DNA from: Halopseudomonas aestusnigri
GTDB taxonomy: Bacteria > Pseudomonadota > Gammaproteobacteria > Pseudomonadales > Pseudomonadaceae
Direction: 5' to 3'
Assembly: GCF_002197985.1 (NCBI RefSeq)
Contig: NZ_NBYK01000005.1
Span: 134,091-198,090 of the forward strand
DNA: 64,000 nt
The translations under genes were made by a program, and so were the position numbers. Shown piece after piece: positions 8,715-52,784 of this stretch. A model generated the notes under the pieces. The model searched no databases and was not told the DNA's origin. It worked only from the letters and a program-made list of their open reading frames with translations. Positions within the stretch are counted from its first letter, which is position 1. Every line of letters begins with the position of its first letter.

Positions 8715-8722
8715 CGGCTGGC
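8704..8722. terminator. Hairpin between convergent flavoprotein and SDR genes
   Basis: GCCAGC (8704-8709) and GCTGGC (8717-8722) form a 6-bp stem around a 7-base loop that includes the flavoprotein stop codon. It lies in the 15-base gap between two convergent genes. No T-run follows on either strand, so a role in termination is only plausible. Confidence 0.35.
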
Positions 8723-8729
8723 GAGCAGC

Positions 8730-9557: not shown

Positions 9558-9639
9558 GTCGCCTCCTGCTGTCGCGGTTGTCTGTCAGCGTAAAGCCGAA
9601 GCGCGGCTGCAGCAAGCAACGGGACCGAGAATGAGCAAA

Positions 9640-10281
9640 TCAGGGCGCCAGTCGCTCCCTCACCCAGTTGCCCTCGACCAGGCGATAGCAAAGCCGGTCA
9701 TGCAGGCGGCTGGGGCGCCCCTGCCAGAACTCGATCAGGGTGGGCACCAGTCGGTAACCGCCCCAGTGCGGAGGACGCGGCGCAGCGGCATCAGCGTATT
9801 GCTCCTGCACAGCACCAAGGCGATCTTCCAGCACCTCGCGCCCCGCAATCACCTGACTCTGCGGCGACGCCCAGGCTCCCAGACGGCTGCCCTCAGGGCG
9901 ACTGTGGAAGTAGGCGTCCGACTCCTCGGCGCTGGTCTGCTCGACCTGACCTTCGATGCGCACCTGACGTTCCAGATCGTGCCACCAGAAGGTCATCGCG
10001 GCAGCCGGCTGACCCGCCAGCTGCTGCCCCTTGGCGCTCTGGTAATTGGTAAAGAACACAAAGCCGCGCTCATCAAAGCCCTTGAGCAACAGGGTGCGCA
10101 GGTGCGGCTGACCTTCAGCGTCGACCGTAGCCAGCATCATGGCGTTGGCTTCGGTGCTTTCCACTTCAACCGCCTGCGCAAACCACTCAGCAAACAGGGC
10201 AAGGGGCTCGGCAGGCGCCTGGGCTTCGGTCAGTCCGTCACGGGTATAGTCGCGACGCAGATCGGCAATACTGGGTTTCAT
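9640..10281 (-). CDS. pdxH: Pyridoxamine/pyridoxine 5'-phosphate oxidase
   Basis: 213 residues from ATG 10281 ([17 protein letters not shown]), which matches the usual PdxH start; an in-frame TTG at 10299 is less likely. FMN-dependent oxidation of pyridoxine or pyridoxamine 5'-phosphate to pyridoxal 5'-phosphate, the last step of B6 cofactor supply. Diagnostic features: [44 protein letters not shown], and the C-terminal signature [14 protein letters not shown]. Length matches E. coli PdxH (218). It may be co-transcribed with the downstream SDR. Confidence 0.97.
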
Positions 10282-10384
10282 CAGATCGGTTTCCGGCAAC
10301 AGTGAATGGTGACGATAGCAACGAATCCTATCCTAGCAGTCGGCCTGCGCCGCACATTGATGCAGCGCAGGCTTTGCGCAGAGG

Positions 10385-11557: not shown

Positions 11558-11662
11558 CATGCGGTCCTTTTTGTCTTGCTTTCTGCCATTAAACAGAAGC
11601 TGCCGACACGTGGCAGCCATCATCAGCTGCCCTGTCGATAGCCCATCGCTCAGGCTGATGAC

Positions 11663-37070: not shown

Positions 37071-38501
37071 TCAGCCTTCGCCACGCTCGCGAATCTTTTC
37101 AACAATGGCTGTAGTCGAACAGCTTTCAACAAAGTTGAGCACCTTTACCTCGCCGCCGTAGGCCTGCACGATCGGCGCACCAACCACCTGATCAACGCTG
37201 TAGTCTCCACCCTTGACCAGCACATCCGGCTTGACCTGCTCAAGCAGCCGCTCAGGGGTGTCTTCGCTGAAGCTGATGACCCAGTCGACCGCCCCAAGCC
37301 CCGCCAAAACAGTCATACGGCGCTCGACACTGTTGATCGGCCGGCCCGGCCCCTTGAGGCGTGTCACCGACGCATCATCATTGATCGCCACAATCAGCCG
37401 GTCGCCCAAAGCGCGCGCCTCTTCCAGATAGCCAACGTGACCGGCATGGATAATGTCGAAGCAGCCATTGGTAAAGACCACCTTCTCGCCGTGGGCACGG
37501 GCATCATCCAATGCCTGCAGCAATTGCTCGACACCCAGCACACCGCGACCGCTGCCCTGCGCCTGCTGCACGGCACGACGCAGCTCCGGCGCACTGATCG
37601 CCGCCGTGCCAAGCTTGCCGACCACAATACCCGCCGCCAGATTGGCCAGCGCAACGGCCAGGGGCAGATCCTCACCCGCCGCCAGCGCCGCCGCCAGGGT
37701 AGAGATCACGGTATCCCCTGCGCCGGTCACATCAAACACTTCGCGCGCGCGCGCGGGCAAGTGCAATGCACCCTCACCCTTGCGCAACAGCGTCATACCC
37801 TGCTCGCTGCGGGTGACCAGCAACGCACCCAGGTCCAGCTCCTCAATCAGCGCCAGGCCCTTGTCGACCAGCTCCTGCTCACTCGCGCAGTGACCGACCA
37901 CCGCTTCAAACTCGGACAGGTTCGGGGTAATCAGGCTGGCGCCACGGTAGATGGAGAAATCACAGCCCTTGGGGTCAGCCAGCACCGGAATACCGCGCTC
38001 GCGGGCTGCAGCAATCAGCGCCTGATGATTGACCAGCGCGCCCTTGCCGTAGTCCGACAGGATCATCACCTTGACCTTGTCCAGCAGACCGCGAACCGAG
38101 GCCAGCAAGGCATCGGCGTCGGTGTCAAAGCGCTCTTCAAAATCAAGCCGAATCAGTTGCTGGTGGCGGCTCATGACCCGCAGCTTGGTGATGGTCGGCA
38201 GCGCCTCGTGCTGCTGAAAATCACAGTAGACGCCTGCAGCATTCAGCCGTTGCTGCAGGCTGTGCGCCGCCTCATCCTTCCCGGTAACGCCCACCAGCCA
38301 GGCCGGAGCGCCGAGCGCTGCGATATTCAGCGCGACGTTACCCGCCCCACCAGGGCGATCCTCAATCTGATCGACCTTGACCACCGGCACCGGTGCTTCC
38401 GGCGAAATACGATTGGTCGGCCCATGCCAGTAACGATCCAGCATCACGTCCCCCACCACCAGAACCGGCGCGGAATCGAATCGGGGCATGCTCAGTTTCA
38501 T
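37071..38501 (-). CDS. hldE: Bifunctional heptose kinase/adenylyltransferase HldE
   Basis: 476 residues from ATG 38501 ([19 protein letters not shown]). The N-terminal ribokinase-type domain (1-~320: [11 protein letters not shown], and FDVTGAGDT with the catalytic Asp) phosphorylates D-glycero-beta-D-manno-heptose 7-phosphate. The C-terminal nucleotidyltransferase domain ([20 protein letters not shown], with the HxGH motif) makes ADP-heptose. Both domains are complete. Supplies heptose for WaaC and WaaF. Located 48 bases downstream of msbA, the same order as in P. aeruginosa. Confidence 0.97.
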
Positions 38502-38549
38502 TGTCTCGGTTACCTGTTTCAGCACCACGCACCCATGCGCATGGTGATA

Positions 38550-40337
38550 TTAATGTTGTACGTCGCTCTCTTCCTCGAACTGCATGCTGTGCAGTCGGGC
38601 GTAATAGCCATTGAGCGCCAGCAGCTCCGCGTGCGTGCCGCGCTCAACGATCTGGCCCTGATCCATCACCATGATCACGTCAGCCTTTTCGATGGTGGAC
38701 AGGCGATGGGCAATAACCAGCGTAGTACGACCCTGCATCACCCGATCCAGCGCAGCCTGGATATGACGCTCCGACTCGGTGTCCAGCGCTGAGGTCGCCT
38801 CATCGAGAATCAGCAAAGGCGCGTCCTTGAGCAGCGCGCGGGCAATCGCCAGACGCTGACGCTGGCCACCCGACAACAGCACCCCGTTCTCGCCAACCAG
38901 GGTATCGAAACCTTGCGGCATCAGCTCGATAAACTCCTTGGCATAGGCCGCCTCAGCCGCTGCTATCACATCCTCACGCGGCGCACCCGCCAGATCACCA
39001 TAGGCAATGTTGTTGGCAACCGTATCGTTAAAGAGGGTCACATTCTGGCTGACCAGCGCGACCTGACGGCGCAGACTGCGCAGCGTCAACTCCTGGATCG
39101 GCACGCCATCAAGCAGAATGTCACCTTCGCTATGGTGATAGAACCGCGGAATCAGATTCGCCAGGGTCGACTTGCCGCTGCCCGAGCGACCAACCAGCGC
39201 GACCATCTGGCCGGGTTCGACACTGAAGCTGATATCCTTGAGCACCTGCTTGTCGGTATCGGGGTAACTGAATGACAGGTTACGCACCTCAATGCGGCCC
39301 TGCGCACGGCCAATATCCTGATGCCCCGTATCCACTTCCGGCTCTTCGTCCAACTGTTCGAACACGCTCTCGGCAGCGGCAATCCCCTTCTGGATATTGG
39401 CGCTGACCTCCGATAGCTGACGGATCGGCTTTGGCAGCAGGCCAGCTGCCGTGATGTAGGCCACCAGATCACCGGCCGTTGCATCACCACGCAGGAACAG
39501 CACAAGAAACATCACCGTTGCCATAGCACTGTAGGTCACCAACTGCAGGGACGGCGTAAAGACCGCGCCAGTGCGCACCATCTTCAGCCCGCGCTGACGG
39601 TTCTCCGTACTGGCCTTGAGAAAGCGATCAGACTCATAGCGCTCGCCACCGAAACTGCGTACCACCCGGAAACCGGAAATGGTCTCGGAGGTCACATGGG
39701 TTACATCCCCCATCGCGGTCTGAATCTTTTTGCTCTGCTTGCGAAACTTCTTGCTCGCGCTGGTCACCATCAGGCCGATGACCGGCAGAATCGCAATCAG
39801 CACCAGCGTCAGCATCCAGTTCATCCACAGCAGATAGAGGAACAGGAAAATCACTGTCATACCTTCGCGAAACACCACCTTGATTGCATCGGTGGCAGCC
39901 CCCGTGACCATGGTGACATTGAAAGTAATGCGGGAAACAAGATGGCCCGAGTTGTGCTGATCAAAATAACGGTTCGGCAGGGTCAGAAGATTGTTGAACA
40001 GCGCGGTACGCAGATCGTGCACCACGCCCAGCGACACCTTGGCAATAAAGTAATTACCCAGGTAGGAGCCAACGCCCTGGTAAAACGCGATGGCAATAAT
40101 AAAGGCCGGAAAGCCCCAGATCAGCGGCACACCAAGAAACATGGCATTAGCACCGCTCTGCAGCCCATCAACAAAATACTTCAGCATCCAGGCCATCGCC
40201 GGCTGGGCCGACGCGAAGATCGCGAAGCCGATGATGCTCAGGGCAAAGGCCTTCCAGTAGGGTTTTACGTAGCCGAGCAGGCGCAGATAGATGCGGGCGC
40301 TTGAACGGGCAAAGCTTTCTTTGGCAGCGTCAGTCAT
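38550..40337 (-). CDS. msbA: Lipid A export ATP-binding/permease protein MsbA
   Basis: 595 residues from ATG 40337 (MTDAAKESFARSS) behind GAAGG; 51 upstream in-frame codons overlap the divergent promoter and are rejected. Homodimeric ABC exporter flipping lipid A-core across the inner membrane. Six membrane helices (about 30-320), then an ATPase domain with Walker A GRSGSGKST, Q-loop, signature LSGGQRQRLAIARAL, Walker B LLILDEATSALD and switch His in VIAHRLSTI. Length fits MsbA (about 580-600). Divergent from the PA4998-like gene; upstream of hldE. Confidence 0.96.
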   Translation of the reverse strand: MTDAAKESFARSSARIYLRLLGYVKPYWKAFALSIIGFAIFASAQPAMAWMLKYFVDGLQSGANAMFLGVPLIWGFPAFIIAIAFYQGVGSYLGNYFIAKVSLGVVHDLRTALFNNLLTLPNRYFDQHNSGHLVSRITFNVTMVTGAATDAIKVVFREGMTVIFLFLYLLWMNWMLTLVLIAILPVIGLMVTSASKKFRKQSKKIQTAMGDVTHVTSETISGFRVVRSFGGERYESDRFLKASTENRQRGLKMVRTGAVFTPSLQLVTYSAMATVMFLVLFLRGDATAGDLVAYITAAGLLPKPIRQLSEVSANIQKGIAAAESVFEQLDEEPEVDTGHQDIGRAQGRIEVRNLSFSYPDTDKQVLKDISFSVEPGQMVALVGRSGSGKSTLANLIPRFYHHSEGDILLDGVPIQELTLRSLRRQVALVSQNVTLFNDTVANNIAYGDLAGAPREDVIAAAEAAYAKEFIELMPQGFDTLVGENGVLLSGGQRQRLAIARALLKDAPLLILDEATSALDTESERHIQAALDRVMQGRTTLVIAHRLSTIEKADVIMVMDQGQIVERGTHAELLALNGYYARLHSMQFEEESDVQH

Positions 40338-40446
40338 GTGGCCTTCAATAGGTAAAACAGGTGGGCTGCAGTCTACCACAAGCCCCGAGAAGCAAAGCTT
40401 GCAAGCTGAAAGTACGATAAACTCCAGATTTTTCAGCTGGAACAGC

Positions 40447-41043
40447 ATGATGCAGCGATTAAGTGAAGAGCAGTTCGAGTCATGGCGCAAAGACGCGCGC
40501 GTTCTTGAAAAGGATCGCTACGGAGAAAAGGTGCTGCTACTGGCCGACGGCACTATGCTCAAGCTGTTCCGCCGTAAAAGCTGGTTCTCGAAGACGCTGT
40601 TTTTCCCACCTGCCGAACGCTTTGCAGATAACGCTGTTGCGCTGCGCAGGCTTAACGTCCCCTGCCCGCAAGTAATTTCCACCTACAAACTGCTGAACCC
40701 CTACCGCAGCGTTGTACACTACTACCCGCTAGCCGGAGCAACCCTGCGCGGCATGCTACAAACTGAGCAGTCGCTAGATCAACTGGTGCTGTTCACTCAG
40801 TTGGCCGAGTTCATAACCAGTCTGCACGAAAAAGGCGTTTACTTTCGCTCACTGCATCTAGGTAATATCGTGCTGACGCCGGATGGACAGCTCGGTCTGA
40901 TCGACATCTCCGACCTGCGATGCGTCGGGCGACCGCTTTCAAAAGGCATGCGCAACCGCAACTACCGGCATCTACTGAGATATCGAGAGGACTGGGTACT
41001 GGTAGATGAGTCGGTTCGCGCGCTATTTCCCCTATTCTCCTGA
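40447..41043 (+). CDS. Lipopolysaccharide kinase-like protein (PA4998-type, catalytic Asp absent)
   Basis: 198 residues; ATGs at 40447 and 40450 are both possible. Kinase-fold protein of the kind placed beside msbA in P. aeruginosa (PA4998). The loop that should read HxDxxxxN is F133-R-S-L-H-L-G-N140, with Ser135 in place of the catalytic Asp, although N140 and the metal-binding D153 (LIDISDL) remain. I recall that this FRSLHLGN form is common in the family, so it may be a pseudokinase or use another mechanism. No membrane span. The acetyltransferase gene starts 17 bases later. Coding base composition looks slightly less GC-rich than the neighbours. Confidence 0.82.
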   Translation: MMQRLSEEQFESWRKDARVLEKDRYGEKVLLLADGTMLKLFRRKSWFSKTLFFPPAERFADNAVALRRLNVPCPQVISTYKLLNPYRSVVHYYPLAGATLRGMLQTEQSLDQLVLFTQLAEFITSLHEKGVYFRSLHLGNIVLTPDGQLGLIDISDLRCVGRPLSKGMRNRNYRHLLRYREDWVLVDESVRALFPLFS

Positions 41044-41060
41044 AAGGAGCTAAGCTGTCG

Positions 41061-41627
41061 ATGCCAAATACCTTTGCCGAGCTTAAAGCTTTCTGGCACT
41101 ACGAGATTCTTGGTGAGGACAAACGATTCTCATGGCGCAAGCTGCGCCGACGGGTCGCGCGCAACAACTCATACTACTGCCTTTTTTGGCTGCGCCTGTC
41201 ACAGTACCTGCACAGTCGCCCGGGCCGCACCACGCTATCAATGGCCAAACGCATCAACAAGGGACTGGCGCGCAAGTACGGTGTCGAGATAATGCTAGGC
41301 GCCCAGATAGACAAGGGGCTGTGGATGGGCCACCCCACAGCTATCACGGTCTACTCCGGGGTTCGCATCGGGCGTGACTGCAACTTGCGCCAGTGCACCA
41401 CCATCGGCTCAGTAGAGGCCAACAACAAACCTATTGAGCTTGGGCACAACGTTGATATCGGTGCGCACTGCTGCATCATCGGCAGCGGCATTCGCATCGG
41501 CAATAACGTGCGTATCGGTGCAATGAGCTTCATCAACAAGGATGTGCCGGATGATGTCACCTATATCACCCGTAAGGAAAACCACATCTATCCCAATCGC
41601 AGCGGCAGCCAGACGGGCGCAGAATAG
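41061..41627 (+). CDS. CysE/LpxA-like left-handed beta-helix acetyltransferase
   Basis: 188 residues from ATG 41061. N-terminal helical region similar to serine acetyltransferases (about 1-75), then hexapeptide repeats (about 80-170: VEIMLGAQIDKGLWMGHPTAITV, YSGVRIGRDCNLRQCTTIG, HNVDIGAHCCIIGSGIRIGNNVRIGA). The His in MGHPTAI corresponds to the catalytic His of the family. Within a surface-glycan locus, transfer of an acetyl group to a sugar is as likely as cysteine biosynthesis. It is convergent with pseI and co-oriented with the kinase-like gene. Confidence 0.82.
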   Translation: MPNTFAELKAFWHYEILGEDKRFSWRKLRRRVARNNSYYCLFWLRLSQYLHSRPGRTTLSMAKRINKGLARKYGVEIMLGAQIDKGLWMGHPTAITVYSGVRIGRDCNLRQCTTIGSVEANNKPIELGHNVDIGAHCCIIGSGIRIGNNVRIGAMSFINKDVPDDVTYITRKENHIYPNRSGSQTGAE

Positions 41628-41653
41628 AGTCTAGCCGCCCCATCCAGCGCCGC

Positions 41654-42709
41654 TCAGTCCAGTAATTCGAGGCTCAACGCCGTGCCAAAAGCAATATCGC
41701 GACTCGCACGGCGACCTATCACCTTGTCCAGCATTTTCGGTGGCAACCCAAAACCGGGGCGCACGCTACGTACGTTCTCCGCCGAAAATAGCTCTCCAGC
41801 CTTCACGTCACGAGTAACGTACAGCGAACGCCGAAAACGTGCGTTACCCTGCTCACTGGCCTTCCGTCCATAGTCAACATGCCCCAGCGCTCGCCAGGCC
41901 GTTTTGCTGTCGCGGCACAGCGCCTGCAACTCGACCGGCTCAAGCGAGAAGCTGTCGTCAGGACCACCACCACTGCGGTCCAAAGTGAAGTGCTTTTCAA
42001 TGATCGACGCGCCCAAGACTACACTGGCAATCGCTGTGGTGTTATCCAGTGTGTGATCTGACAAACCGGTGACCAGACCAAAACGCTCACGCATGTCCGC
42101 CAGCGTGCGCAGGTTGTAGTCCTCGGCGGGAGCTGGATAGCCACTGACGCAGTGGAGAATAGCCAGCTCGCGGCAACCACCCTCGCGTGCAGCCTCTACC
42201 GCCTCGGCAATCTCATCGCTATCTGCCATGCCGGTGGAAATGATCATCGGCTTGCCCGTTGCAGCAACATAACGGATCAGCGGCAAGTCGATAGCCTCGA
42301 ATGAGGCGATCTTGTAAGCCGGCGCATTCAGATCCTCCAGCAAGTCCACCGCAGTAAAGTCGAAGGGAGAGCTGAAGATGGTGATGTCGTGCTTGCGTGC
42401 GTGTTCGAACAGCGGCTTGTGCCAGTCCCAAGGCATATGCGCCTGCTGGTAAAGCTCATACAGGGACTGGCCATCCCACAACCCACCACGGATCTGGAAA
42501 TCCTCGGTGTCACAGTTCAGGGTAATGGTGTCAGCGGTATAGGTCTGTAGCTTGATCGCATCGGCACCGGCGTGCTTGGCTTGCTCGATAATCTGTAGAG
42601 CAGTCTCCAGACTCCCATTATGGTTGGCCGACAGCTCGGCAATGATATAGGGCTCAGAGTCGAGGCCAATGCGTCGCCCTGCGATGGAAATACTGGGTGT
42701 ACCAGACAT
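41654..42709 (-). CDS. pseI: Pseudaminic acid synthase PseI
   Basis: 351 residues, ATG at 42709 behind AAGGAGG. Condenses 2,4-diacetamido-2,4,6-trideoxy-L-altrose with phosphoenolpyruvate to give pseudaminic acid. NeuB-type TIM barrel (about 1-270: IIAELSANHNGSLETALQII, KLQTYTADTITL, YKIASFEAIDLPLI, IISTGMAD, HCVSGYPAP, GLSDHT, GASIIEKHFTLDR) and a C-terminal SAF/antifreeze-like domain (about 285-350: RSLYVTRDVKAGELFSAENV). The sequence is closer to PseI than to sialic (NeuB) or legionaminic (LegI) synthases by these phrases; assignment rests on my recognition plus the pse neighbours. Last gene of the long operon. Confidence 0.93.
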   Translation of the reverse strand: MSGTPSISIAGRRIGLDSEPYIIAELSANHNGSLETALQIIEQAKHAGADAIKLQTYTADTITLNCDTEDFQIRGGLWDGQSLYELYQQAHMPWDWHKPLFEHARKHDITIFSSPFDFTAVDLLEDLNAPAYKIASFEAIDLPLIRYVAATGKPMIISTGMADSDEIAEAVEAAREGGCRELAILHCVSGYPAPAEDYNLRTLADMRERFGLVTGLSDHTLDNTTAIASVVLGASIIEKHFTLDRSGGGPDDSFSLEPVELQALCRDSKTAWRALGHVDYGRKASEQGNARFRRSLYVTRDVKAGELFSAENVRSVRPGFGLPPKMLDKVIGRRASRDIAFGTALSLELLD

Positions 42710-42721
42710 GGAAAGCCTCCT

Positions 42722-43237
42722 TCAGCCTCGTACCTGCCACTCGGAATCGAGCAGGCCAAAGCAAATGACATCATGAAACTGCTGCCCATCGAAATGCTGA
42801 TCTCGCAGCACCCCCTCCTGACAGAAGCCCATCTTGCGATGAAAATCGATTGAACGCTGGTTGAAACCCAGCGCCTGACCACAAATCTTATGTAACTGTA
42901 AACGCTGGAAAGCGAACTCCAGCGCACGACGTCCCAACCCCGTGCCGGTGCCGCGCGGCGCCTCCGGAGCGATATAGAATCCCCAGTCAGCCACCCGTCC
43001 AGCACCTTGCACAGTGAAATGCACGAAACCTCGAGGCTGATCGTCAACGTCATAAACCAGCAGGTGCCGCAACGGATCAAGCTCGCAACGGGCGAACCAG
43101 TCTCGGTGCTCCTTCTCGCCAATCTCGTGTTGGGTATACATGTAACGCCGCACGGATTCATGGTTACGCCAGCTGCGCACCAGTTCGAGATCAGGCTCGG
43201 CCAGCAGGCGCAGGCAATCCGTCTCGTTGTCCGTCAT
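42722..43237 (-). CDS. pseH: PseH-like GNAT N-acetyltransferase
   Basis: 171 residues, ATG at 43237, overlapping the pseG stop by four bases. PseH transfers acetyl from acetyl-CoA to the 4-amino group of UDP-4-amino-4,6-dideoxy-beta-L-AltNAc. Seen: LVRSWRNHESVRRYMYTQHEI at the start (typical of PseH), a GNAT acetyl-CoA loop PRGTGTGLGRRALEFAF, and FNQRSIDFHRKMGF. No membrane segment. Lies between pseG and pseI, as in many pse clusters. Confidence 0.9.
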   Translation of the reverse strand: MTDNETDCLRLLAEPDLELVRSWRNHESVRRYMYTQHEIGEKEHRDWFARCELDPLRHLLVYDVDDQPRGFVHFTVQGAGRVADWGFYIAPEAPRGTGTGLGRRALEFAFQRLQLHKICGQALGFNQRSIDFHRKMGFCQEGVLRDQHFDGQQFHDVICFGLLDSEWQVRG

Positions 43238-44334
43238 GCCAATGCCTCCATCGCATCCAAAACGCGGCTCACCCCAGCGCCGTCAACCAGCGCCGCAGCA
43301 CGCTGACTCATGTGCTGGAGCTGCCCTGGGTCGGCAATTAGCGCCCCAAGCAGCCCAGGCAGAGACTCGGCCAGACTGTTCACCGATGGCAATAAGTGCA
43401 CCGCGCCAGCAGCACGCAGTCCCTCGGCGACCAGTCGCTGGTTATCCGCCAACACAGCCATCAAGGTGGGCAGGCCCAGACAGCAGCGCTCCCACGCGGT
43501 CGCGCCTGCGGCGCCAATGGCAAGGTCAGCCTGCGCCATCACATACGCCATGTCACTCGCATCCACGCGCACCGTTACGTCAAGCGTCAAGGCCTGGCTC
43601 AACTGCTGCACCTCGGCCAGCCAGGGGGCCTGTCCGCCCATGATAACCGTCACCGCCAAGGCGTCAGCGCCGGGCGTCGCGGCCAAACCAAGCAGCACCT
43701 GGGCAGTGGCATTGTCCGCATCCACACCGCCCATGGAGACCAATATCTGCTTGAGCGGATATGGCTGCGCGGCGCGCCTGGTCAATGACGCCTCACGCTG
43801 CGCGGCAAAATCCGCACGCAGCAGGGCGTTGGCACTGCCGCAAAGCAGCTGGGCAGCGGCCGGGACCAGCGAACGATAGTCCTCGGGGCGCCTGCTATAG
43901 GTCTGATCCAGCAACAGATCGCAGTCGTGCGCACGATCAGCCAGGTCATCGATCACCATGACGTGACGACAGCATGCCCGCATACGCGATTCCCACTGCG
44001 TATCCAGCGCGTAATGATCGACCACCAACCAGTCACAGCCCACCGACTGCAAGACTGCAGCCGTATCAGCCGCATCCTGCTCGGCACTCACACCGAGCCA
44101 GTGAGCATGCGAGCCGGACACCGACTCAGGCTGCTGCACAGCTGCAGGCAAGGCGGTGATTGTAAAACCGCGTCCGTGGATGACATCCAGCAGGTGGCCG
44201 CGATGGCTGCGGCAGATGAAATGACAGTCATGCCCGGCAGCGCTGAGCGCATCGGCCAAGGTCAGGCAACGCATGACGTGTCCCGTACCGATCCACAGGG
44301 CGGCATCGGCACGAAAACAGATCTGCAGGCCCAT
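43234..44334 (-). CDS. pseG: UDP-2,4-diacetamido-2,4,6-trideoxy-altropyranose hydrolase PseG
   Basis: 366 residues from ATG 44334 (MGLQICFRADAALWIGTGHVMRC), coupled as TGATG to the upstream fusion gene; ten codons upstream are not used. A GT-B/MurG-like hydrolase that releases UDP from the nucleotide sugar. Seen: an N-terminal IGTGHVMRCLTLADAL loop with the catalytic His, the WLVVDHYALD and DDLADRAHDCDLLLDQ phrases, and the nucleotide-binding IGAAGATAWERCCLGLPTL. Complete length for the family. Confidence 0.92.
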   Translation of the reverse strand: MGLQICFRADAALWIGTGHVMRCLTLADALSAAGHDCHFICRSHRGHLLDVIHGRGFTITALPAAVQQPESVSGSHAHWLGVSAEQDAADTAAVLQSVGCDWLVVDHYALDTQWESRMRACCRHVMVIDDLADRAHDCDLLLDQTYSRRPEDYRSLVPAAAQLLCGSANALLRADFAAQREASLTRRAAQPYPLKQILVSMGGVDADNATAQVLLGLAATPGADALAVTVIMGGQAPWLAEVQQLSQALTLDVTVRVDASDMAYVMAQADLAIGAAGATAWERCCLGLPTLMAVLADNQRLVAEGLRAAGAVHLLPSVNSLAESLPGLLGALIADPGQLQHMSQRAAALVDGAGVSRVLDAMEALA

Positions 44335-46361
44335 CAGTTCAGCCGCTTGAACCCACCATGGCACACCGGCCCCTTGAGTAACGCGCCGACATCGCGGCCC
44401 TGCTCACACTCGCTGATCAGGGCAAAAACCGGATCCAGCGCGTCGAAGTAGCCATCAATCACCTCCTGACTATGCTCCATGCAGACGTAGACGGCATTGC
44501 TGGCGAGGTAGCCCTTAGCCAACATTTCCTGACTGACAAGCGTCTTGTACTGCAGCACGTTAGGGCTGCGGAACGAGAAACCGGTCAGCGCCGGGAGGCC
44601 CCAGTGATCTATTTCGATTCCATGGCGATCCGCCAGTTCCTGCCAACCATCGCGGATCGACAGGCCGGTCTGAGTGATGTACTCCCAAGAGCGCTCGCGC
44701 TCCATAACTTCGAGGGTCTTCAGCGCCGCAGTCGGGCCGACACGCTCAGTCCAGAAAGTGCTGCTGATGAAGGTTGTTTGCGCCGCCTCCATGATCTCGC
44801 GCCGCCCAATGGTGGCGGTGATGGCGTAGCCGTTACCCAGCGCCTTGCCGAACATGGCCATATCCGGCTCAACGCCGTACATCTTGTGCAGACCGCCAAA
44901 GGTCTGCCGGAAGCCGGAGGTACACTCGTCAAAGATCAGCACGATGCCACGATCAGTGGCCAGCTTGCGCACTTTGTGCAGGAAGTCATTCTCAGGCCCC
45001 ATGTTGCGCACCACCTCCATCTTGATCACGCCAATATCGTGGCGATTGACCAAGGCTTCCAGCTCGGCGTAGTTGTTGTAGTTGAAGGGGAACACGGTGC
45101 CCCTGAGGTTACCCGGCACACCATTGGGCTCGAGCCCCGGCAACAGATGACCAGCCAGGTTCTCGTCGTCGCCCAGGTTGGCTGACAGATACCAGTCGTG
45201 CCAACCATGGTAGCCACAGACCGCCACCTTGTCCTTGCCGGTGGCAGCCCGGGCGATACGAATGGCCAGCGCGTTGGCTTCACCGCCGGAGCGGGCAAAG
45301 CGCACCATGTCTGCCCAGGGGTGCAGCTCGATCAGCTTTTCTGCCAGCCAGACTTCCTCGGGGCAGTTGAGCGTCGACATATTGCCGTTATCTATGGTGC
45401 CGCGCACCGCATCGTCGACCTCAGGGTGACCGTAGCCAAGAATATTGGTGCCCACTCCCATGATGCACATGTCGGTGTAGGCCTTGCCGTCCATATCCCA
45501 GACGGTGCACCCCTTGGCCTTGCTGAAATACGCCGGCCACTGCTCAGGAAGGAACATCTCTGCGCGCTTGGACAGCAGCATATTGCCGCCGGGAATGACC
45601 TGTTTGGCCCGTTTCCACAACTTTTGACCGGTGCCCATAGTGGCCCCCTCGTTACGTATCAGCGTTTGGTTGTCTTTGAACAGCGCCGGGCTGTTCTCCT
45701 GCAATGCCTTGACCTGCCGCCAGCTGAAGTGAATGTCCGGCGCAAAGTGCGCAAACACGCGGCGAATCACCTCTAGGTCCGCCGGCTCATCCACTGTCCA
45801 GCGCCAGCCTGACAGGTCTTGCTCATTCTGCTCTGCACCTACGCGGAAGTGGCCTGACTCACGCAGGTAAGGTGTGACATGCTCGTGATCGAAGGCCGCG
45901 TCCGTTTGCTTGCTGGCCTGCTCCAGCGCGCGCAAGCTGAACACTTCGATATCCAGCCCGTCCGGATAGCTCGGCGGAGCGACGTTACTGAAATAATCCA
46001 CACCAGCAGCGCGGTAGCCCCTGATCATTTGATCGACCAATTCGGGATCAACCAGCGGGCAATCACCCGTGATCCGCACGATAACGTCAGCCTGATGTGC
46101 TCTGGCAGCCTGCAGATAACGTGCCATGACATCTTGTTCATCGCCCTGAACACAGGCAAAACCGAGCTGGCGTACACAGTCAGCCAGCGGCTCGTTACGT
46201 GCATCCACCGACGTCGCCACCACAATCTGATCGACCTCGCGGGCACGCGCCAGGCGCGTCAGCAATACCTCAATCATGGGTACACCGCCGATGGGCTTCA
46301 TTACCTTGTCAGGCAAGCGGGTCGAGCCCATGCGAGCCTGAACGATTGCAACGGTTTTCAT
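44334..46361 (-). CDS. SpsF-type cytidylyltransferase fused to class III aminotransferase
   Basis: 675 residues from ATG 46361, which overlaps the reductase stop as ATGA. Residues 1-~235 form a CMP-sugar synthetase domain of the SpsF/COG1861 type (VAIVQARMGSTRLPDKVM, RITGDCPLVDPE, PDGLDIEVFS, WTVDEPADLEVI). Residues ~242-675 form a HemL-like PLP aminotransferase (MVRFARSGGEANALAIRIAR, GYHGWHDW, FDECTSGFR with D478, and AMFGKALGNG with the PLP-binding K506). Both domains keep their key residues. In this operon the first domain most likely does the PseF job, activating the nonulosonic acid with CTP. The aminotransferase role is unknown. A strong internal site, GAGGGGG then ATG at 45638, precedes the second domain. 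Confidence 0.9.
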   Translation of the reverse strand: MKTVAIVQARMGSTRLPDKVMKPIGGVPMIEVLLTRLARAREVDQIVVATSVDARNEPLADCVRQLGFACVQGDEQDVMARYLQAARAHQADVIVRITGDCPLVDPELVDQMIRGYRAAGVDYFSNVAPPSYPDGLDIEVFSLRALEQASKQTDAAFDHEHVTPYLRESGHFRVGAEQNEQDLSGWRWTVDEPADLEVIRRVFAHFAPDIHFSWRQVKALQENSPALFKDNQTLIRNEGATMGTGQKLWKRAKQVIPGGNMLLSKRAEMFLPEQWPAYFSKAKGCTVWDMDGKAYTDMCIMGVGTNILGYGHPEVDDAVRGTIDNGNMSTLNCPEEVWLAEKLIELHPWADMVRFARSGGEANALAIRIARAATGKDKVAVCGYHGWHDWYLSANLGDDENLAGHLLPGLEPNGVPGNLRGTVFPFNYNNYAELEALVNRHDIGVIKMEVVRNMGPENDFLHKVRKLATDRGIVLIFDECTSGFRQTFGGLHKMYGVEPDMAMFGKALGNGYAITATIGRREIMEAAQTTFISSTFWTERVGPTAALKTLEVMERERSWEYITQTGLSIRDGWQELADRHGIEIDHWGLPALTGFSFRSPNVLQYKTLVSQEMLAKGYLASNAVYVCMEHSQEVIDGYFDALDPVFALISECEQGRDVGALLKGPVCHGGFKRLN
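45636..45650 (-). promoter_or_regulatory. Internal ribosome-binding site and ATG at domain junction
   Basis: Inside the fusion gene, minus-strand GAGGGGG (45650-45644) stands five bases before an in-frame ATG (45638-45636) that opens MGTGQKLWKRAKQVIPGG, exactly where a free-standing aminotransferase would start. This suggests either internal initiation giving a separate ~434-residue aminotransferase, or a relic of two ancestral genes. Confidence 0.6.
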
Positions 46362-47245
46362 GCTGTTTTCCACAGTGCGGGGTTAAGCAATGCCGGGTCG
46401 GTAGCGCCGAGCTCGGCGGGCACCGGCGGGCAGTCACCTGCAGCCGCCTGAAGTATCTGCTGCCACTGCTGCGCGCTATCCACACCCACCACCACACGCT
46501 CGATAAGCGGCTGGTTGAGCGCGTAACGCAGGGTGGCTTGCAGTGGCGACAGTTGGTGTTCTTCCAGCCAACTGTCCCAGCAGTCCCAGAGTGACTGCCA
46601 GTGCTCAAAATGGGCGGGACGCTGCTTGCGGCTCATTAACAGCAGCCCCTGCAGAAACACCGAACGCACATGCAGCGCGGTCCCCTGCCGTGATAAACGC
46701 TGCAACCAACCGGACTCATCAAGACGGTGATCAATAATGTTGTAGGGTGCCTGCACCAGATCCAACGCAAAACGCTGGCACAGACGCTCCAGCTCTTCGG
46801 CATCATAGACCGACGCCCCGATACGCCCCGCCAGACCCTGCTCGCGTAGCCCCGCCAGCGCAGCGTACAGAGCATCACCCTGCGACTCAAGCAACTGCGC
46901 CGGACGGTGCAGCAACACCGCATCAACGCTCTGCAGCCCGAGCCGAGCAAGCGACTCAGCCAATTGGCGCTCCACCCAGCCGGACACGTCGTCGCAGGCA
47001 TTAGGGATGGCCGACAGCTTGGTCACTACCTTAAAGCCGCTCAGATCAAACTCGCCCAGTACACGTTCGCTCTCACCGTACGCGATTGCGGTATCCAGGG
47101 TATCCACCCCAGACTCACGCGCACTGCCGAGAATCCGCCCTACCTCGTCGACACCCACCTGACCCTGCTGGTTGGCGATGCCATAGGGCAGGCCAAACTG
47201 AACAGTGCCCAGCGCTAGCTTTCCAGTCACTTCACGCATGCTCAT
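46358..47245 (-). CDS. Aldo/keto reductase
   Basis: 295 residues, ATG at 47245 (ATG 47239 is also possible). NAD(P)H-dependent reductase of the AKR superfamily: LALGTVQFGLPYGIAN, DTAIAYGESE with the catalytic Asp and Tyr, the Lys in VVTKLS, and the His in LLHRPAQ. Proteins of this LALGTVQFG type are common in surface-sugar clusters beside HemL-like aminotransferases and SpsF cytidylyltransferases, which is exactly the context here. Substrate unknown; probably a carbohydrate carbonyl. Overlaps the GNAT gene upstream by 14 bases and the fusion gene downstream by four. Confidence 0.9.
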   Translation of the reverse strand: MSMREVTGKLALGTVQFGLPYGIANQQGQVGVDEVGRILGSARESGVDTLDTAIAYGESERVLGEFDLSGFKVVTKLSAIPNACDDVSGWVERQLAESLARLGLQSVDAVLLHRPAQLLESQGDALYAALAGLREQGLAGRIGASVYDAEELERLCQRFALDLVQAPYNIIDHRLDESGWLQRLSRQGTALHVRSVFLQGLLLMSRKQRPAHFEHWQSLWDCWDSWLEEHQLSPLQATLRYALNQPLIERVVVGVDSAQQWQQILQAAAGDCPPVPAELGATDPALLNPALWKTA

Positions 47246-47765
47246 TGTGCAATTTCCCGAGCCAGAAACAGCCCATACGCCGACCGTTCAAGGTCACATG
47301 TTCACGCATGAAACCCTCAACCGTATAGCCAGCCTTGAGAAATATGCGTAGCGACGCCAGGTTATCCTCGTAGCAGCCAGCCTCAAGCCGGTGCAGCGCT
47401 AACGACTCGAAACCATAGGCCGTAATCAGGCGCACAACCTCGCTGGACAGTCCCTGCCCCCAACATGCCTTGTCACCAATAAAAAGGCTGACCTGACCGC
47501 GCCGGTAGTGGCTGTTGACGAAGCCCAACTTGACGTTGCCCACGTGTCGGTCGCCCAGTTGCAGGAAGATGCCGAACAAATGGCTGGCCGGGTCCGCATT
47601 GCAATGTTCTATAAACGCGCGACAGCTTTCAACGCTCTGCGGACTGTGCCGGGTCTCGAGGTACTGGTTGACCTGCGGATCATTCATCCAGTCCGCATAG
47701 GTCTGGGTGGCGTCTTGTGCACTCAACGGGCGCAGGTAGACACGCTCGGTGGCGAGTTTAACCAT
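47232..47765 (-). CDS. GNAT acetyltransferase (RimJ/RimL-like), second in pse cluster
   Basis: 177 residues, ATG at 47765, overlapping the pseC stop by eight bases. GNAT fold with RVYLRPLSAQDATQTYADWMND, VNSHYRRGQVSLFIGDKACWGQGLSSEVV (acetyl-CoA loop) and LRIFLKAGYTVEGFMREHV. It is separate from PseH, which is encoded further down. One possibility is acylation of another amino group on the nonulosonic acid or its precursor; protein acetylation is less likely in this context. Confidence 0.85.
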   Translation of the reverse strand: MVKLATERVYLRPLSAQDATQTYADWMNDPQVNQYLETRHSPQSVESCRAFIEHCNADPASHLFGIFLQLGDRHVGNVKLGFVNSHYRRGQVSLFIGDKACWGQGLSSEVVRLITAYGFESLALHRLEAGCYEDNLASLRIFLKAGYTVEGFMREHVTLNGRRMGCFWLGKLHNEHA

Positions 47766-48918
47766 GACAGACCTCGGTCAGAGTCGCGATCACCTCATCC
47801 TGCTGCGCTTCAGTCAAGGAGTGGTACATCGGCAAACTGATGGCCTCTCGGTAATACGCCATTGATTGCGGAAAATCGTCGGCAGCAAACCCCATGGCCG
47901 CGTAATACGGCTGGGTGTGTACCGGAATGTAATGCAGATTTACCCCGATACCACGCTCGCGCAGTTGCTCGAACACCTCACGATGGCTCAAGGTAATCCT
48001 CTCTAGCTGCAGACGGATTGGGTAGAGATGCAGACCGGAGTAACTGTCGGCGTGTTGCCAGGGACAGGTGACGGGCAACGCCGCCAGCAGCTGATCATAG
48101 CGGCGGGCGAGCGCGTGGCGGCGAGCAACAAAGTCGTCCAACCGAGCCAACTGGCTGACACCCAGCGCCGCCTGCAGTTCGGTCATGCGGTAATTAAAGC
48201 CCAGTTCGATCTGCTGGTAATACCAGGGGCCGTCAGACTCACCGACCATCAGCGACGGATCACGGGTAATGCCGTGGCTGCGGTAGAGCGCCATGCGCGA
48301 CGCGAGCGTTTCGTCATTGGTGACCGCCATTCCTCCTTCGGCGGTAGTGATGATCTTCACCGGATGAAAGCTAAAAATAGTGATGTCACTAAAGCGACCA
48401 CTACCGACATACTCACCCTTATAGCGCCCGCCGATGGCGTGCGAGGCATCCTCGATCACGGAAAAGCCAAAGCGTTTGGCCAGCGCGCCAATGGCCTGCA
48501 TGTCACAGGGCTGGCCGCACAAATGAACCGCCACCACTACCTTGGGCAGCCGCCCCTGCTTTTCGGCGTCAATCAGCTTGTGCTCAAGGGCCACCGGACA
48601 CAGATTGTAGGTACGTGGATCGATGTCGACAAAATCCACTTGCGCCCCACAGTAAAGAGCGCAGTTAGCCGATGCCACAAAGGTCACCGGAGTTGTCCAC
48701 AGCCAGTCACCCTGCCCCAGCTCTAGCGCCAGACAGGCGATATGCAGCGCCGAGGTCGCACTATTGACCGCCACCGCGTGAGCCGCACCGACCTTGCGGG
48801 CCAGCGACTGCTCAAATTGCGGCACCATGGGGCCTTGCGTCAGAAAGTTCGAGCGCAATACGGCGACTACCGCCTCGATATCCTGCTCGCTGATCTCCTG
48901 GCGTCCGTAGGGGATCAT
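47758..48918 (-). CDS. pseC: UDP-4-amino-4,6-dideoxy-N-acetyl-beta-L-altrosamine transaminase PseC
   Basis: 386 residues, ATG at 48918. DegT/DnrJ/EryC1-family PLP aminotransferase; PseC aminates the 4-keto product of PseB. Seen: MIPYGRQEISEQDIEAVVAVL at the start, AVNSATSALHIA, TPVTFVASANCALY, VIEDASHAIG with the PLP Asp, and SFHPVKIITTAEGG with the Schiff-base Lys. GFNYRMTELQAALG is typical of the family. Three bases separate it from pseB. Length agrees with known PseC. Confidence 0.94.
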   Translation of the reverse strand: MIPYGRQEISEQDIEAVVAVLRSNFLTQGPMVPQFEQSLARKVGAAHAVAVNSATSALHIACLALELGQGDWLWTTPVTFVASANCALYCGAQVDFVDIDPRTYNLCPVALEHKLIDAEKQGRLPKVVVAVHLCGQPCDMQAIGALAKRFGFSVIEDASHAIGGRYKGEYVGSGRFSDITIFSFHPVKIITTAEGGMAVTNDETLASRMALYRSHGITRDPSLMVGESDGPWYYQQIELGFNYRMTELQAALGVSQLARLDDFVARRHALARRYDQLLAALPVTCPWQHADSYSGLHLYPIRLQLERITLSHREVFEQLRERGIGVNLHYIPVHTQPYYAAMGFAADDFPQSMAYYREAISLPMYHSLTEAQQDEVIATLTEVCHG

Positions 48919-48921
48919 TTA

Positions 48922-49920
48922 TCAGATACTCCCGATCTTTTCACGGTTGGCGTCGATCCACTCCTGCAGCTGAGCGTCAGTCATCCACTCGCTGTTGTTG
49001 TCACTGGCGTAGACAAAGCCCTCAGGCACCTTCTTGCCATCCTTGATCCGCTTGGCGCAGGTAGCCCACTCGTGGATGGTCGGGAGAATTTTGAAGTGCT
49101 CCGGGTACTCGTAGGTGTAGTAGGCATCTTCAGCGCTGATCATTTGCTCGTGCAGCTTTTCGCCTGGACGAATACCGATAACCTCCTGACGGGCATCCGG
49201 CGCAACGACCCGCGCCAGATCGGTCACTTTCATCGAGGGAATCTTCTTCACGTAGATCTCGCCCCCCTCCATGTCAGCAAAGGCATGCCACACCAGCTCA
49301 ACGCCCTCCTCCAAGGAGATCATGAAGCGCGTCATGCGCTGATCGGTAATCGGCAACACCCCCTTGTCTTTGATCGACATGAAGAACGGAATGACCGAGC
49401 CGCGCGAGCCCATGACATTACCGTAGCGAACCACTGAAAAACGGGTACCGTGCTCACCCGAGTAGGAGTTGCCGGCAACAAACATCTTGTCGGACGCCAG
49501 CTTGGTCGCGCCGTACAAGTTGATCGGCGAGCTGGCCTTGTCGGTCGACAGGGCCACAACACCTTTGACGCCCTTGTCGATACAAGCGTCGATCAGGTTC
49601 ATCGCGCCGTTGATGTTGGTCTTCACACACTCGAACGGGTTGTACTCGGCGGTAGGAACAATCTTGGTTGCAGCAGCATGGACCACATAGTCCACGCCGT
49701 CTAGAGCCCGGTACAGGCGGTCCTTGTCGCGCACGTCGCCAATAAAGAAGCGCAGGCGTGGATCGCCTTCGTATTTTTTGGCCATGTCCCACTGTTTCAT
49801 TTCATCACGGGAGAAAATGATGATCTTCTTGGGGTTGAAGCGCTCCAGCGTCATGGGGACAAAGGTGTTGCCGAACGAGCCAGTGCCGCCGGTAATGAGA
49901 ATGGTCTTGTTGGTCAGCAT
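48922..49920 (-). CDS. pseB: UDP-N-acetylglucosamine 4,6-dehydratase (inverting) PseB
   Basis: 332 residues, ATG at 49920 behind AGGGG. First step of pseudaminic acid synthesis: UDP-GlcNAc to UDP-2-acetamido-2,6-dideoxy-beta-L-arabino-hexos-4-ulose. Extended SDR: ILITGGTGSFGNTFV (glycine-rich NADP site), DEMKQWDMAKKY, FFIGDVRDKDRL, HAAATKIVPTAEYNPFE, and STDKASSPINLYGATK with the catalytic-lysine YGATK. MTRFMISLEEGVELV is a PseB hallmark. Soluble, no large membrane domain, unlike the WbpM-type dehydratases. Confidence 0.96.
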   Translation of the reverse strand: MLTNKTILITGGTGSFGNTFVPMTLERFNPKKIIIFSRDEMKQWDMAKKYEGDPRLRFFIGDVRDKDRLYRALDGVDYVVHAAATKIVPTAEYNPFECVKTNINGAMNLIDACIDKGVKGVVALSTDKASSPINLYGATKLASDKMFVAGNSYSGEHGTRFSVVRYGNVMGSRGSVIPFFMSIKDKGVLPITDQRMTRFMISLEEGVELVWHAFADMEGGEIYVKKIPSMKVTDLARVVAPDARQEVIGIRPGEKLHEQMISAEDAYYTYEYPEHFKILPTIHEWATCAKRIKDGKKVPEGFVYASDNNSEWMTDAQLQEWIDANREKIGSI

Positions 49921-49931
49921 GGGAATCCCCT

Positions 49932-51032
49932 TCAGAGCAGATGCGTTTGGATGGCACGAGCGACCCGCTCGTTGGCCATGCGATCACGAGAGCCAAACAC
50001 CCAGGAGAAATAACGCTCACGTTGGGCGGCATAGGCAGTCTGATCGGTCAGGGCCTTATCTAGTACAGTTGAAAAATCCGGTGTCTGATCACCGATATAA
50101 AGATTAGGTCCGCAATCATACAGGGTCAGCAACCGCGATAGGTCATCAGGGTGCATGGCTTCACGCTCGCCAATCTGACGAATGACGTCTCGCGAGCACT
50201 CGGGCGTTTCTATCATCAACTGCGGAACATCATAAAACAGCGCTTCCTCGCTGGGCGAGTTGGCATCCGAGACCACCAAATCCGAGACTGACAGCACCTC
50301 CGACAGTGCGCACTCACTCAAATCCAGAAACACATTGCCTCGCGCCTCAATCAGAGCACGCACCCGTTTGAAGCTGTCCCTATCGGCACGACGAGAGGTC
50401 AGAGACTGGCTCGGATGGGGACGCAGGATCAAATTGAAATGCGGCGCCGCTGTGTTTACCAATTGTTCCGCTGCGCGCTGCCAGGAGCCGAATCCCCGCC
50501 GACTAGAAGTGTAGAGCACAGTCTGACGCTGAGGATCAAGCCCCAGTCGCTGCAAGACCGTTGATCGCTGCTGTACCGAGCGTTCAGGATACTCGCAAAA
50601 CGGCAGAAACCCAGTATCTACAATATTCAGCCGCTCCGCCTCTGGAAAGCGCTCAAGCATCCCTTTCATACGCGGCCCAATGGCACAGAGCAGGTCAAAG
50701 TGACTATTGCGCAACAACGCCTCCCTACTGAGCATCATGTAGGTGCCGTGAAAGACCGTACCCTTTTTTGCCCCGTACGGTTTAAGAAAGCTACCATATG
50801 GCGAGCCGGTAACAATCGCGTCTGCATCCTTCAATAGCCGGTTGCCGCGCACCAGAAAACCGAATCGCTTGGAATAGCGCGCAACCTCAAGCTCAGGGTA
50901 CAGGCGCCGAAAAGCACGCAGAGTCGAAGTGCGGCTGGATACAAAGGTTCCAGGTAATACACGTGCGACCTGGGCCAGGTGCGGAACCGCCTGAAACATC
51001 TTTGAGAAATAGACAACGCCATCCGCAGTCAT
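49932..51032 (-). CDS. TagB/TagF-like GT-B transferase (CDP-glycerol glycerophosphotransferase family)
   Basis: 366 residues, ATG at 51032, three bases after the carbamoyltransferase stop; pseB follows after 11 bases. The fold pattern is GT-B: an N-terminal half with GTVFHGTYMM and a C-terminal half with TVLYTSSRRGFGSW, NLILRPHPSQ and SDLVVSDANSPSEEALFYDVPQLMIE. The last two match the acceptor/donor site of the CDP-glycerol glycerophosphotransferase family. Here, between core LPS genes and pse genes, it could transfer a CMP- or CDP-activated residue onto the core; the nonulosonate is one candidate. No signal peptide. Confidence 0.72.
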   Translation of the reverse strand: MTADGVVYFSKMFQAVPHLAQVARVLPGTFVSSRTSTLRAFRRLYPELEVARYSKRFGFLVRGNRLLKDADAIVTGSPYGSFLKPYGAKKGTVFHGTYMMLSREALLRNSHFDLLCAIGPRMKGMLERFPEAERLNIVDTGFLPFCEYPERSVQQRSTVLQRLGLDPQRQTVLYTSSRRGFGSWQRAAEQLVNTAAPHFNLILRPHPSQSLTSRRADRDSFKRVRALIEARGNVFLDLSECALSEVLSVSDLVVSDANSPSEEALFYDVPQLMIETPECSRDVIRQIGEREAMHPDDLSRLLTLYDCGPNLYIGDQTPDFSTVLDKALTDQTAYAAQRERYFSWVFGSRDRMANERVARAIQTHLL

Positions 51033-51035
51033 CGA

Positions 51036-52784
51036 TCAGTGCCCGCCGTCCTTTTCCTTCATCACCAGAATATCTTCCATAATCAAAAATTGCAGATCCG
51101 ACCCGTAGAACATGTTCAGCGCATCGGTCGGTGAGCAGACCATCGGCTCACCACGGCGGTTAAGCGAGGTATTGAGCACCACCCCGTTGCCAGTCATTGC
51201 TTCCAGTTCCTTCATCAGATCGTAGTAGCGCGGATTGAATTCGCGCTTGAGTACCTGGGCACGCGCGGTACCGTCCTCGTGCACAACCTCCGGTACACGC
51301 TCGGCCCAGCCTTCCTTGACGTCGAAGGTGAACGTCATGAAGGGCGACGGGTGATCAACGCTGAGCATCTGCGGGGCAACGGTATCCAGCATTGAGGGGC
51401 AGAACGGGCGCCAGCGCTCGCGGAACTTGATCTGCTCGTTGATGCGATCGGCTACGCCTGCAATACTCGGGCAACCGATAATCGAACGACCGCCCAGTGC
51501 CCGCGGGCCAAACTCCATGCGACCCTGGAACCAGGCGACCGGATTACCTTCAACCAGCACCTTGGCGATTTCCTGCGGCACATCGTCGATCTTTTGCCAT
51601 TGGGGCTTGTTCGGATGACGGGCGCAGGCAGCAATGATGTCTTCGTTACTGTATGAGGGGCCCAGGTAGACGTGTTCCATCTTCTCGACCGGCACGCCGT
51701 TCTTGACCGAGACAAAGGCAGCAGCACCCACAGCGGTGCCGGCGTCACCAGAAGCCGGCTGTACGAACAGCTCCTTGACGTCCGGCCGCGCGATGATGCG
51801 CTGGTTAAGCTTGACGTTCAGTGCACAGCCACCGGCAAAGGCAAGTCGGCCGGTTTCCTTCAGAATGTCGCCGAGATAGTAGTCAATCATCTCCAGCGCC
51901 AATTTTTCGAACAGCGCCTGCATCGCGGCAGCGTAATGAATATAGGGGTCGTCGGCGATGTCGCCTTCACGCTTGGGCCCCAGCCATTCGATCAGCTTGG
52001 GCGAGAAGTAGTAGCCCTTGCCTTTTTCCTTGTAGCGGCGGAAGCCGATAACGTTGGCGTAATCGGTGTTGATGATCAGCTCGCCATTTTCGAACTTGGC
52101 CAGCCGGGAGAAGTCGTACTTGGCGGCGTCACCGTAGGGCGCCATACCCATGACCTTGAACTCGCCGTCGAGCATTTCGAAGCCGAGGTATTCGGTAATT
52201 GCGCCGTACAGACCGCCCAGCGAATCCGGATCGTAGAATTCCTTGATCTTGTGGATCCTGCCGTTTTCACCCCAGCCGAAGAAGGTGGTGGCGTACTCAC
52301 CCTTGCCGTCGATGCCGAGAATCGCAGTCTTTTCGCTAAAGCCCGAACAGTGATAGGCACTGGATGCATGCGCCAGGTGATGCTCCACCGGCTCCAGACG
52401 CACCTTCTTGGCCTCAAAGCCCAGCTGTTCGAGGCACCAGAGAATCTTCTTGCGATAACGTTTGAAGCGGCGATTGCCGGTCAGCAGCGCGTCCAGTGAA
52501 CGATCAGGGGCATACCAGTAACGCTTGGCGTAGTGCCAGCGCGCCTTGCTGCCAAATAGACTGATGGGCGCAAACGGAATGCAGACAACGTCCACATCGG
52601 CAGGCGTGATGCCGGCCTGCTCAAGACAGAACTTCGCCGACTCGTAGGGCATCCGGTTCTTGGCGTGCTTGTCACGCACAAATCGCTCTTCTTCGACGGC
52701 AGCAATCAGTTTGCCATCAATATAAAGGGCCGCAGAAGGGTCATGGCTCAGGGCGCCAGACAGGCCAAGTACAGTAAATCCCAC
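51036..52784 (-). CDS. Carbamoyltransferase of the LPS core (PA5005-like)
   Basis: 582 residues from GTG 52784 behind GAGG. NodU/CmcH/TobZ-type O-carbamoyltransferase. A Kae1-like N-terminal domain binds metal and nucleotide (GLSGALSHDPSAALYIDG, EPVEHHLAHASSAYH with His135/136/139). The C-terminal YrdC-like domain carries MEFGPRALGGRSIIG and FRERWRPFCPSML. The product should carbamoylate a sugar; P. aeruginosa LPS inner core has a carbamoyl group on heptose II and its genome encodes a closely similar protein at this place (PA5005, named wapO as I recall). Closely follows the two-domain kinase gene. Confidence 0.92.
   Translation of the reverse strand: MGFTVLGLSGALSHDPSAALYIDGKLIAAVEEERFVRDKHAKNRMPYESAKFCLEQAGITPADVDVVCIPFAPISLFGSKARWHYAKRYWYAPDRSLDALLTGNRRFKRYRKKILWCLEQLGFEAKKVRLEPVEHHLAHASSAYHCSGFSEKTAILGIDGKGEYATTFFGWGENGRIHKIKEFYDPDSLGGLYGAITEYLGFEMLDGEFKVMGMAPYGDAAKYDFSRLAKFENGELIINTDYANVIGFRRYKEKGKGYYFSPKLIEWLGPKREGDIADDPYIHYAAAMQALFEKLALEMIDYYLGDILKETGRLAFAGGCALNVKLNQRIIARPDVKELFVQPASGDAGTAVGAAAFVSVKNGVPVEKMEHVYLGPSYSNEDIIAACARHPNKPQWQKIDDVPQEIAKVLVEGNPVAWFQGRMEFGPRALGGRSIIGCPSIAGVADRINEQIKFRERWRPFCPSMLDTVAPQMLSVDHPSPFMTFTFDVKEGWAERVPEVVHEDGTARAQVLKREFNPRYYDLMKELEAMTGNGVVLNTSLNRRGEPMVCSPTDALNMFYGSDLQFLIMEDILVMKEKDGGH

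Follow-up and report, generated by a model that had tools for sequence, protein, structure and literature searches.

Which enzyme takes the place of PseF in the pseudaminic acid operon of Halopseudomonas aestusnigri, and why should an aminotransferase be part of the same polypeptide? An earlier note on this DNA had described a cytidylyltransferase of SpsF type joined to a class III aminotransferase resembling HemL, and had proposed that the fusion replaces PseF. The window (the whole stretch of 64,000 nucleotides in which the operon lies), the remainder of the genome, genomes of the same family and related loci from other phyla were analysed. The results favor, with reasonable confidence, the interpretation that the fusion is part of a cassette that modifies and activates a nonulosonate of the pseudaminic acid type, in which amination at C8 would be combined with CMP activation.

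The fusion protein and its operon

The minus-strand operon has the order pseB-pseC-GNAT2-AKR-fusion-pseG-pseH-pseI (Table 1). As the earlier note had stated, PseB, PseC, PseG, PseH and PseI are all present; each scored above its NCBIfam cut-off, and the five equivalogs assign the operon to the pseudaminic acid pathway. The stop codon of the AKR gene overlaps the start codon of the fusion (ATGA) and the stop codon of the fusion overlaps the start of pseG (TGATG), making coupled translation likely at both junctions. On one side the operon is flanked by genes which, from their translations, we take to be msbA/hldE, and on the other by what we take to be WaaP-type kinase-like genes, suggesting that the locus belongs to the LPS core rather than to the flagellum. 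The candidate transferase encoded next to pseB possibly uses the CMP-sugar.

Table 1. Features of the pseudaminic acid operon and adjoining genes, in positions of the window.
Feature	Position	Strand	Evidence
PseI, pseudaminic acid synthase	41654..42709	-	TIGR03586, 520 bits
PseH	42722..43237	-	TIGR03585, 115 bits (cut-off 93)
PseG	43234..44334	-	TIGR03590, 303 bits
Fusion: SpsF-type cytidylyltransferase (residues 1-240) and class III aminotransferase (residues ~241-675)	44334..46361	-	Pfam, structure, catalytic residues
Non-homologous cassette GNAT2-AKR-fusion in the pseF slot	44345..47770	-	blastn against L197
AKR, aldo-keto reductase, predicted nonulosonate C8-OH oxidant	46358..47245	-	PF00248, 106 bits
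GNAT2, second GNAT acyltransferase	47232..47765	-	Acetyltransf_3, 87 bits
PseC	47758..48918	-	TIGR03588, 572 bits
PseB	48922..49920	-	TIGR03589, 551 bits
Candidate transferase, CDP-glycerol glycerophosphotransferase/BFO_1060-like	49932..51032	-	weak Glyphos_transf, 19.5 bits; BFO_1060, 30.7 bits (cut-off 200)
Carbamoyltransferase of the LPS-core locus	51036..52784	-	PF02543, PF16861

The fusion is encoded by a single uninterrupted frame that runs from an ATG at 46361 to a TGA at 44334 and specifies 675 amino acids; an alternative GTG start at 46373 gives the longest open reading frame. Pfam profiles matched residues 4-169 as CTP_transf_3 (116 bits, cut-off 22.6) and residues 277-580 as Aminotran_3 (PF00202, 135 bits, cut-off 30.5), confirming the described architecture. 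Consistent with this result, the AlphaFold2 model consisted of two confident domains (mean pLDDT 87.2). In Foldseek searches the N-terminal domain matched a cytidylyltransferase of Leptospira (6oew, TM 0.93 by target length), and the C-terminal domain matched HemL, FumI, PctV and GenB3/GenB4. As modelled, the class III fold is shared with GenB3/GenB4 and FumI, which modify side chains of sugars or polyols, and also with HemL. The homologue search recovered full-length fused proteins in many phyla, which excludes a sequencing or annotation artefact.

Residues R10, S13, R15, K19 and D100 of the N-terminal domain and G360, E361, Y384, H385, D478 and K506 of the C-terminal domain were invariant in an alignment of 45 homologues down to 44% identity, bearing out the earlier statement that both halves keep their catalytic residues. 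From the roles of these positions in the respective families, the N-terminal residues are predicted to form the CTP/metal site and K506 to be the PLP lysine. The domain match and the conserved CTP/metal-site residues class the first half as an SpsF/CTP_transf_3 cytidylyltransferase, for which CMP transfer to a nonulosonate is predicted; the PF00202 match, the PLP lysine and D478 class the second half as a class III aminotransferase. The invariance of both sets of residues, and the overlap of genes that are probably coupled, argue against a reading in which either half serves as a non-catalytic scaffold or the locus is silent, and we regard this reading as barely credible.

The closest solved folds of the aminotransferase half are glutamate-1-semialdehyde aminomutases. 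This would agree with a HemL-like aminomutase that swaps neighbouring amino and keto groups, for instance at C7 and C8, a function we consider highly improbable: against the HemL model TIGR00713 the fusion scored 201.7 bits, far below the cut-off of 527.3, and PseH is expected to have acylated the C7 amine by the time PseI acts. Identity of the fusion half with the cell's own HemL was rejected, as a separate true HemL is encoded on contig C1 (628.5 bits).

PseF and the slot between pseC and pseG

In the genome of H. aestusnigri (3.83 Mb, 99.99% complete) no protein, the fusion included, reached the cut-off of the PseF model (TIGR03584, 205.7 bits), and the absence of a free PseF was thereby confirmed. 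Apart from the fusion, the only CTP_transf_3 protein above the cut-off was a KdsB-like protein of 254 amino acids on contig C10; a third, weak match was sub-threshold. A hidden PseF elsewhere in the genome was rejected on this basis. The claim that the fusion is the only CTP-using candidate is therefore correct, the KdsB-like protein excepted.

The distribution of the fusion was followed in a sample of 198 genomes of the same family, 47 of which had a PseI above the cut-off. These encoded PseF (36 genomes), the fusion (6), or a pair resembling EpaA/EpaB and made up of an SpsF::AKR protein of 539-543 amino acids and an SDR (4; L180, L181, L190 and L191); the remaining one (L108) was a contig fragment. 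PseF was found in none of the six fusion genomes, in one of which the fusion is split over contigs, compared with 36 of the 41 other PseI-positive genomes (Fisher p = 4e-5, with four of the six being close relatives and the independent events correspondingly fewer).

A direct view of the replacement was provided by L197, a locus from the same genus that is collinear with the window on both sides of the slot. Homology detected by blastn covered 37084-44344 (76%) and 47771-51011 (82%), and its breakpoints coincided with gene borders. Between these flanks L197 carries 694 bp with pseF, whereas the window carries 3.4 kb with GNAT2, AKR and the fusion. Judged by this alignment, one cassette has been exchanged for another at a single slot. 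In L171 and L172 the slot is filled by a fourth kind of cassette, which comprises an AKR, a Gfo/Idh/MocA oxidoreductase, an SDR and a free PseF.

The same-slot exchange and the mutual exclusion within the family give good support to the proposal that the fusion replaces PseF. Beyond the family, PseF and an intact fusion were found in the same operon in two of 80 related loci, L036 and L065, so that the substitution does not apply everywhere. The genes at L036:7630-8385 and L065:12074-12799 are genuine pseF genes whose products are 54-55% identical to a family PseF. Genomes of this kind may make the modified sugar alongside the plain one.

Partners of the fusion across bacteria

The earlier note had called for a search for other genomes with the fusion. 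Besides the six of the 198 family genomes, this search yielded the 80 related loci, from Proteobacteria, Chlorobi, Verrucomicrobia, Bacteroidetes, Cyanobacteria, Actinobacteria and other groups, and it disclosed partner genes that had gone unmentioned, namely an AKR gene nearly always directly upstream and a second GNAT gene. In 72 of the 80 loci AKR lay no more than 400 bp upstream of the fusion; in the remaining eight it was within 5 kb in five, two were cut by a contig end, and one had no detectable copy. The AKR tetrad D51/Y56/K76/H113 was invariant in 95 homologues, EpaA-like ones included.

The association extends to loci in which the cytidylyltransferase and aminotransferase are separate. 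L057 and L080 have the unfused order AKR-SpsF-aminotransferase with an aminotransferase 67-71% identical to that of the window, and distant versions (about 32-41% identity) occur in the pse operons of L170, L173, L174, L219, L221 and L224. When L070 is added to L057 and L080, identity to the window's aminotransferase ranges from 67 to 82%, whereas that of the SpsF partner is only 27-34%. This indicates that the aminotransferase travels with the AKR and that the cytidylyltransferase is exchangeable. The AKR/SpsF/aminotransferase cassette occurs widely among bacteria. Massilia L005 carries an AKR joined to a second SpsF domain (8384-9997); this gene adjoins the SpsF::aminotransferase gene (10001-12025), so that one operon contains two cytidylyltransferase domains. 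Relatives of the aminotransferase were also present on the putative viral contigs L120, L121, L124 and L134, in most cases close to relatives of SpsF or PseB; that of L121 is full-length, fused and 33% identical.

These arrangements bear on another explanation, that the N-terminal domain is a plain PseF substitute producing CMP-Pse5Ac7Ac and the aminotransferase makes another product, such as an amine or amino acid that decorates the glycan. SpsF proteins are CMP-nonulosonate synthetases elsewhere (PMC7439481), and class III aminotransferases accept many kinds of substrate. However, the aminotransferase remains beside the AKR where the fusion is absent and also where its SpsF partner shows such low identity, and no AKR or aminotransferase was present between pseC and pseG in the family PseF loci that were read. 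The explanation is accordingly held to be unlikely.

PseC is present in the window and in most fusion loci, where the aminotransferase would not be needed at C4 of the UDP-sugar. L016, L021, L081 and similar loci combine PseB, AKR and the fusion with a distant NeuB and an RmlD-like reductase, and PseC is missing from its usual place. Such loci look like those for a nonulosonate without a 7-amino group, indicating that the module does not act on pseudaminic acid in every case and probably handles nonulosonates of more than one backbone. The loci with an RmlD-like reductase in place of PseC would also fit an aminotransferase acting on the nonulosonate or a precursor at another carbon, such as C4, or C7 where PseC is missing. 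We think this quite unlikely, given the presence of PseC in the window and most loci and given that the EpaA precedent and a natural 8-amino sugar favor C8 (PMC12053666, PMC3210612).

The GNAT gene lies upstream of AKR in all six family fusion genomes and is absent from the PseF and EpaA-like slots; it is missing from many fusion loci elsewhere. GNAT2 scored 50 bits against the PseH model, below the cut-off of 93. Since the window already holds a true PseH and the GNAT gene is tied to the fusion slots, GNAT2 is a candidate for the enzyme that acylates the new amine and probably has that role. Where it is missing, the amine may be free, or may be modified by other nearby enzymes, among which formyltransferase-like and methyltransferase-like proteins were named from reading the sequences.

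Proposed C8 amination and comparison with known systems

The closest precedent is provided by Acinetobacter baumannii prophages, in which EpaA (542 amino acids, CTP_transf_3 and AKR) and EpaB (SDR) convert Pse5Ac7Ac to its 8-epimer, as established by complementation and NMR (PMC12053666). Epimerization by two oxidoreductases most simply implies an 8-keto intermediate. The window cassette shares with this system CTP_transf_3 and AKR functions, predicted in the cassette to be directed at pseudaminic acid, and in relatives of the window EpaA-like pairs fill this very slot between pseC and pseG; the EpaA/EpaB architecture is also present in L138, L167 and others, and the slot of L171 and L172 likewise pairs an AKR with an SDR. 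The window differs from the 8-epimerization pair in that its AKR belongs to another clade and has a gene to itself, its CTP domain is fused to an aminotransferase, and its operon has no SDR except PseB. The AKRs of window-type modules are 31-34% identical to EpaA-type AKRs and form a separate clade in the AKR tree. Long branches meet in this tree, which supports kinship with the EpaA AKRs at the level of the family but does not show common descent. The EpaA sequence itself was not found in phage and viral collections, and EpaA was compared with the genome relatives through architecture and slot.

With the SDR absent and an aminotransferase present, the simplest reading of the window cassette is that the 8-keto sugar is aminated. 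Under the proposed route, pseudaminic acid would be made by PseB, PseC, PseH, PseG and PseI, whose genes are observed and whose activities are predicted. The AKR, by the precedent of EpaA, would oxidize the C8 hydroxyl to a ketone, and the class III aminotransferase half would convert this ketone to an amine. The product would be a 5,7,8-triamino-3,5,7,8,9-pentadeoxynonulosonate, i.e. 8-amino-8-deoxy-pseudaminic acid, the new amine of which GNAT2 would probably N-acylate, a less certain step than the others. The N-terminal SpsF domain would, in place of PseF, use CTP to form the CMP-sugar, a step for which the case is strong; amination could precede or follow it. Judging from the locus, the sugar would probably be added to the LPS core. 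The carbon attacked, the order of steps and the enzyme activities are all inferred. The earlier suggestion of a chemistry beyond standard pseudaminic acid is likely correct, and the AKR linkage together with the EpaA precedent sharpens it to the predicted amination at C8.

Nonulosonic acids shape the immune and phage recognition of bacteria. An 8-amino-3,5,7,8,9-pentadeoxynonulosonate occurs in the LPS O-polysaccharide of Flexibacter maritimus (PMC3210612), and the genome paper of this organism, now Tenacibaculum maritimum, does not describe aminotransferase or O-antigen genes. Although the sugar is thus known chemically, no paper assigning genes to an 8-amino nonulosonate, or a function to the SpsF-aminotransferase fusion, was found in the open-licence literature. 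A broader proposition, to which we give an even chance, is that the cassette represents a common and hitherto unassigned means of making 8-amino nonulosonic acids, that the CMP-sugar synthetase-aminotransferase fusion channels a reactive 8-keto or 8-amino sugar between its sites, and that pse loci exchange slot cassettes to produce either pseudaminic acid or its 8-epimer or the 8-amino form. If so, the combination of AKR, SpsF and class III aminotransferase in a pse locus would predict that many genomes at present annotated for pseudaminic acid make another surface sugar, and would supply an enzyme for a new class of sialic acid analogues.

Other known systems resemble parts of the cassette. 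HemL has the same fold as the C-terminal half and the same PLP residues; it differs in that the fusion scores below the family cut-off and a true HemL is encoded elsewhere in the genome. In Shewanella, KdnB and KdnA make 8-amino-Kdo by oxidation followed by transamination near the ulosonate tail, on an eight-carbon sugar and with enzymes that probably belong to other families than those of the window cassette. The sugar Kdo8N is known (PMC3210612). SpsF of B. subtilis, assigned by genetics to the CMP-Leg step (PMC7439481), is a cytidylyltransferase of the same type in a nonulosonate pathway, but is a single-domain protein that serves legionaminic acid. In Vibrio B9-25K2 the Pse cluster encodes a bifunctional SpsF-AKR protein, the SpsF domain of which was proposed to act for the missing NeuA/PseF (PMC7371886); there SpsF is fused to an AKR, not to an aminotransferase.

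The published description of the group I flagellin glycosylation islands of Aeromonas places an AKR, a cytidylyltransferase and a class III aminotransferase between pseC and pseG, with no function given for the AKR or aminotransferase (PMC7874193). The gene order is that of the window, although the genes are unfused and the locus is flagellar. From its species and island group, A. hydrophila AH-1, which has a single nonulosonate, likely carries the AKR/aminotransferase subgroup. Its flagellin glycan has a mass of 403 Da and an oxonium ion at m/z 404, and some of its fragments differ by one unit from those of a pseudaminic acid; the authors of that study proposed a nitrogen-free formula (PMC4691044). 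By the nitrogen rule, the even mass of the protonated ion points to nitrogens in odd number, which is not the case for Pse5Ac7Ac (oxonium ion 317.134); C17H29N3O8, as one example formula, would give a computed 404.203. The m/z 404 ion is no more than suggestive, and C8 amination, if it occurs as proposed, would possibly explain the odd mass of the Aeromonas flagellin glycan.
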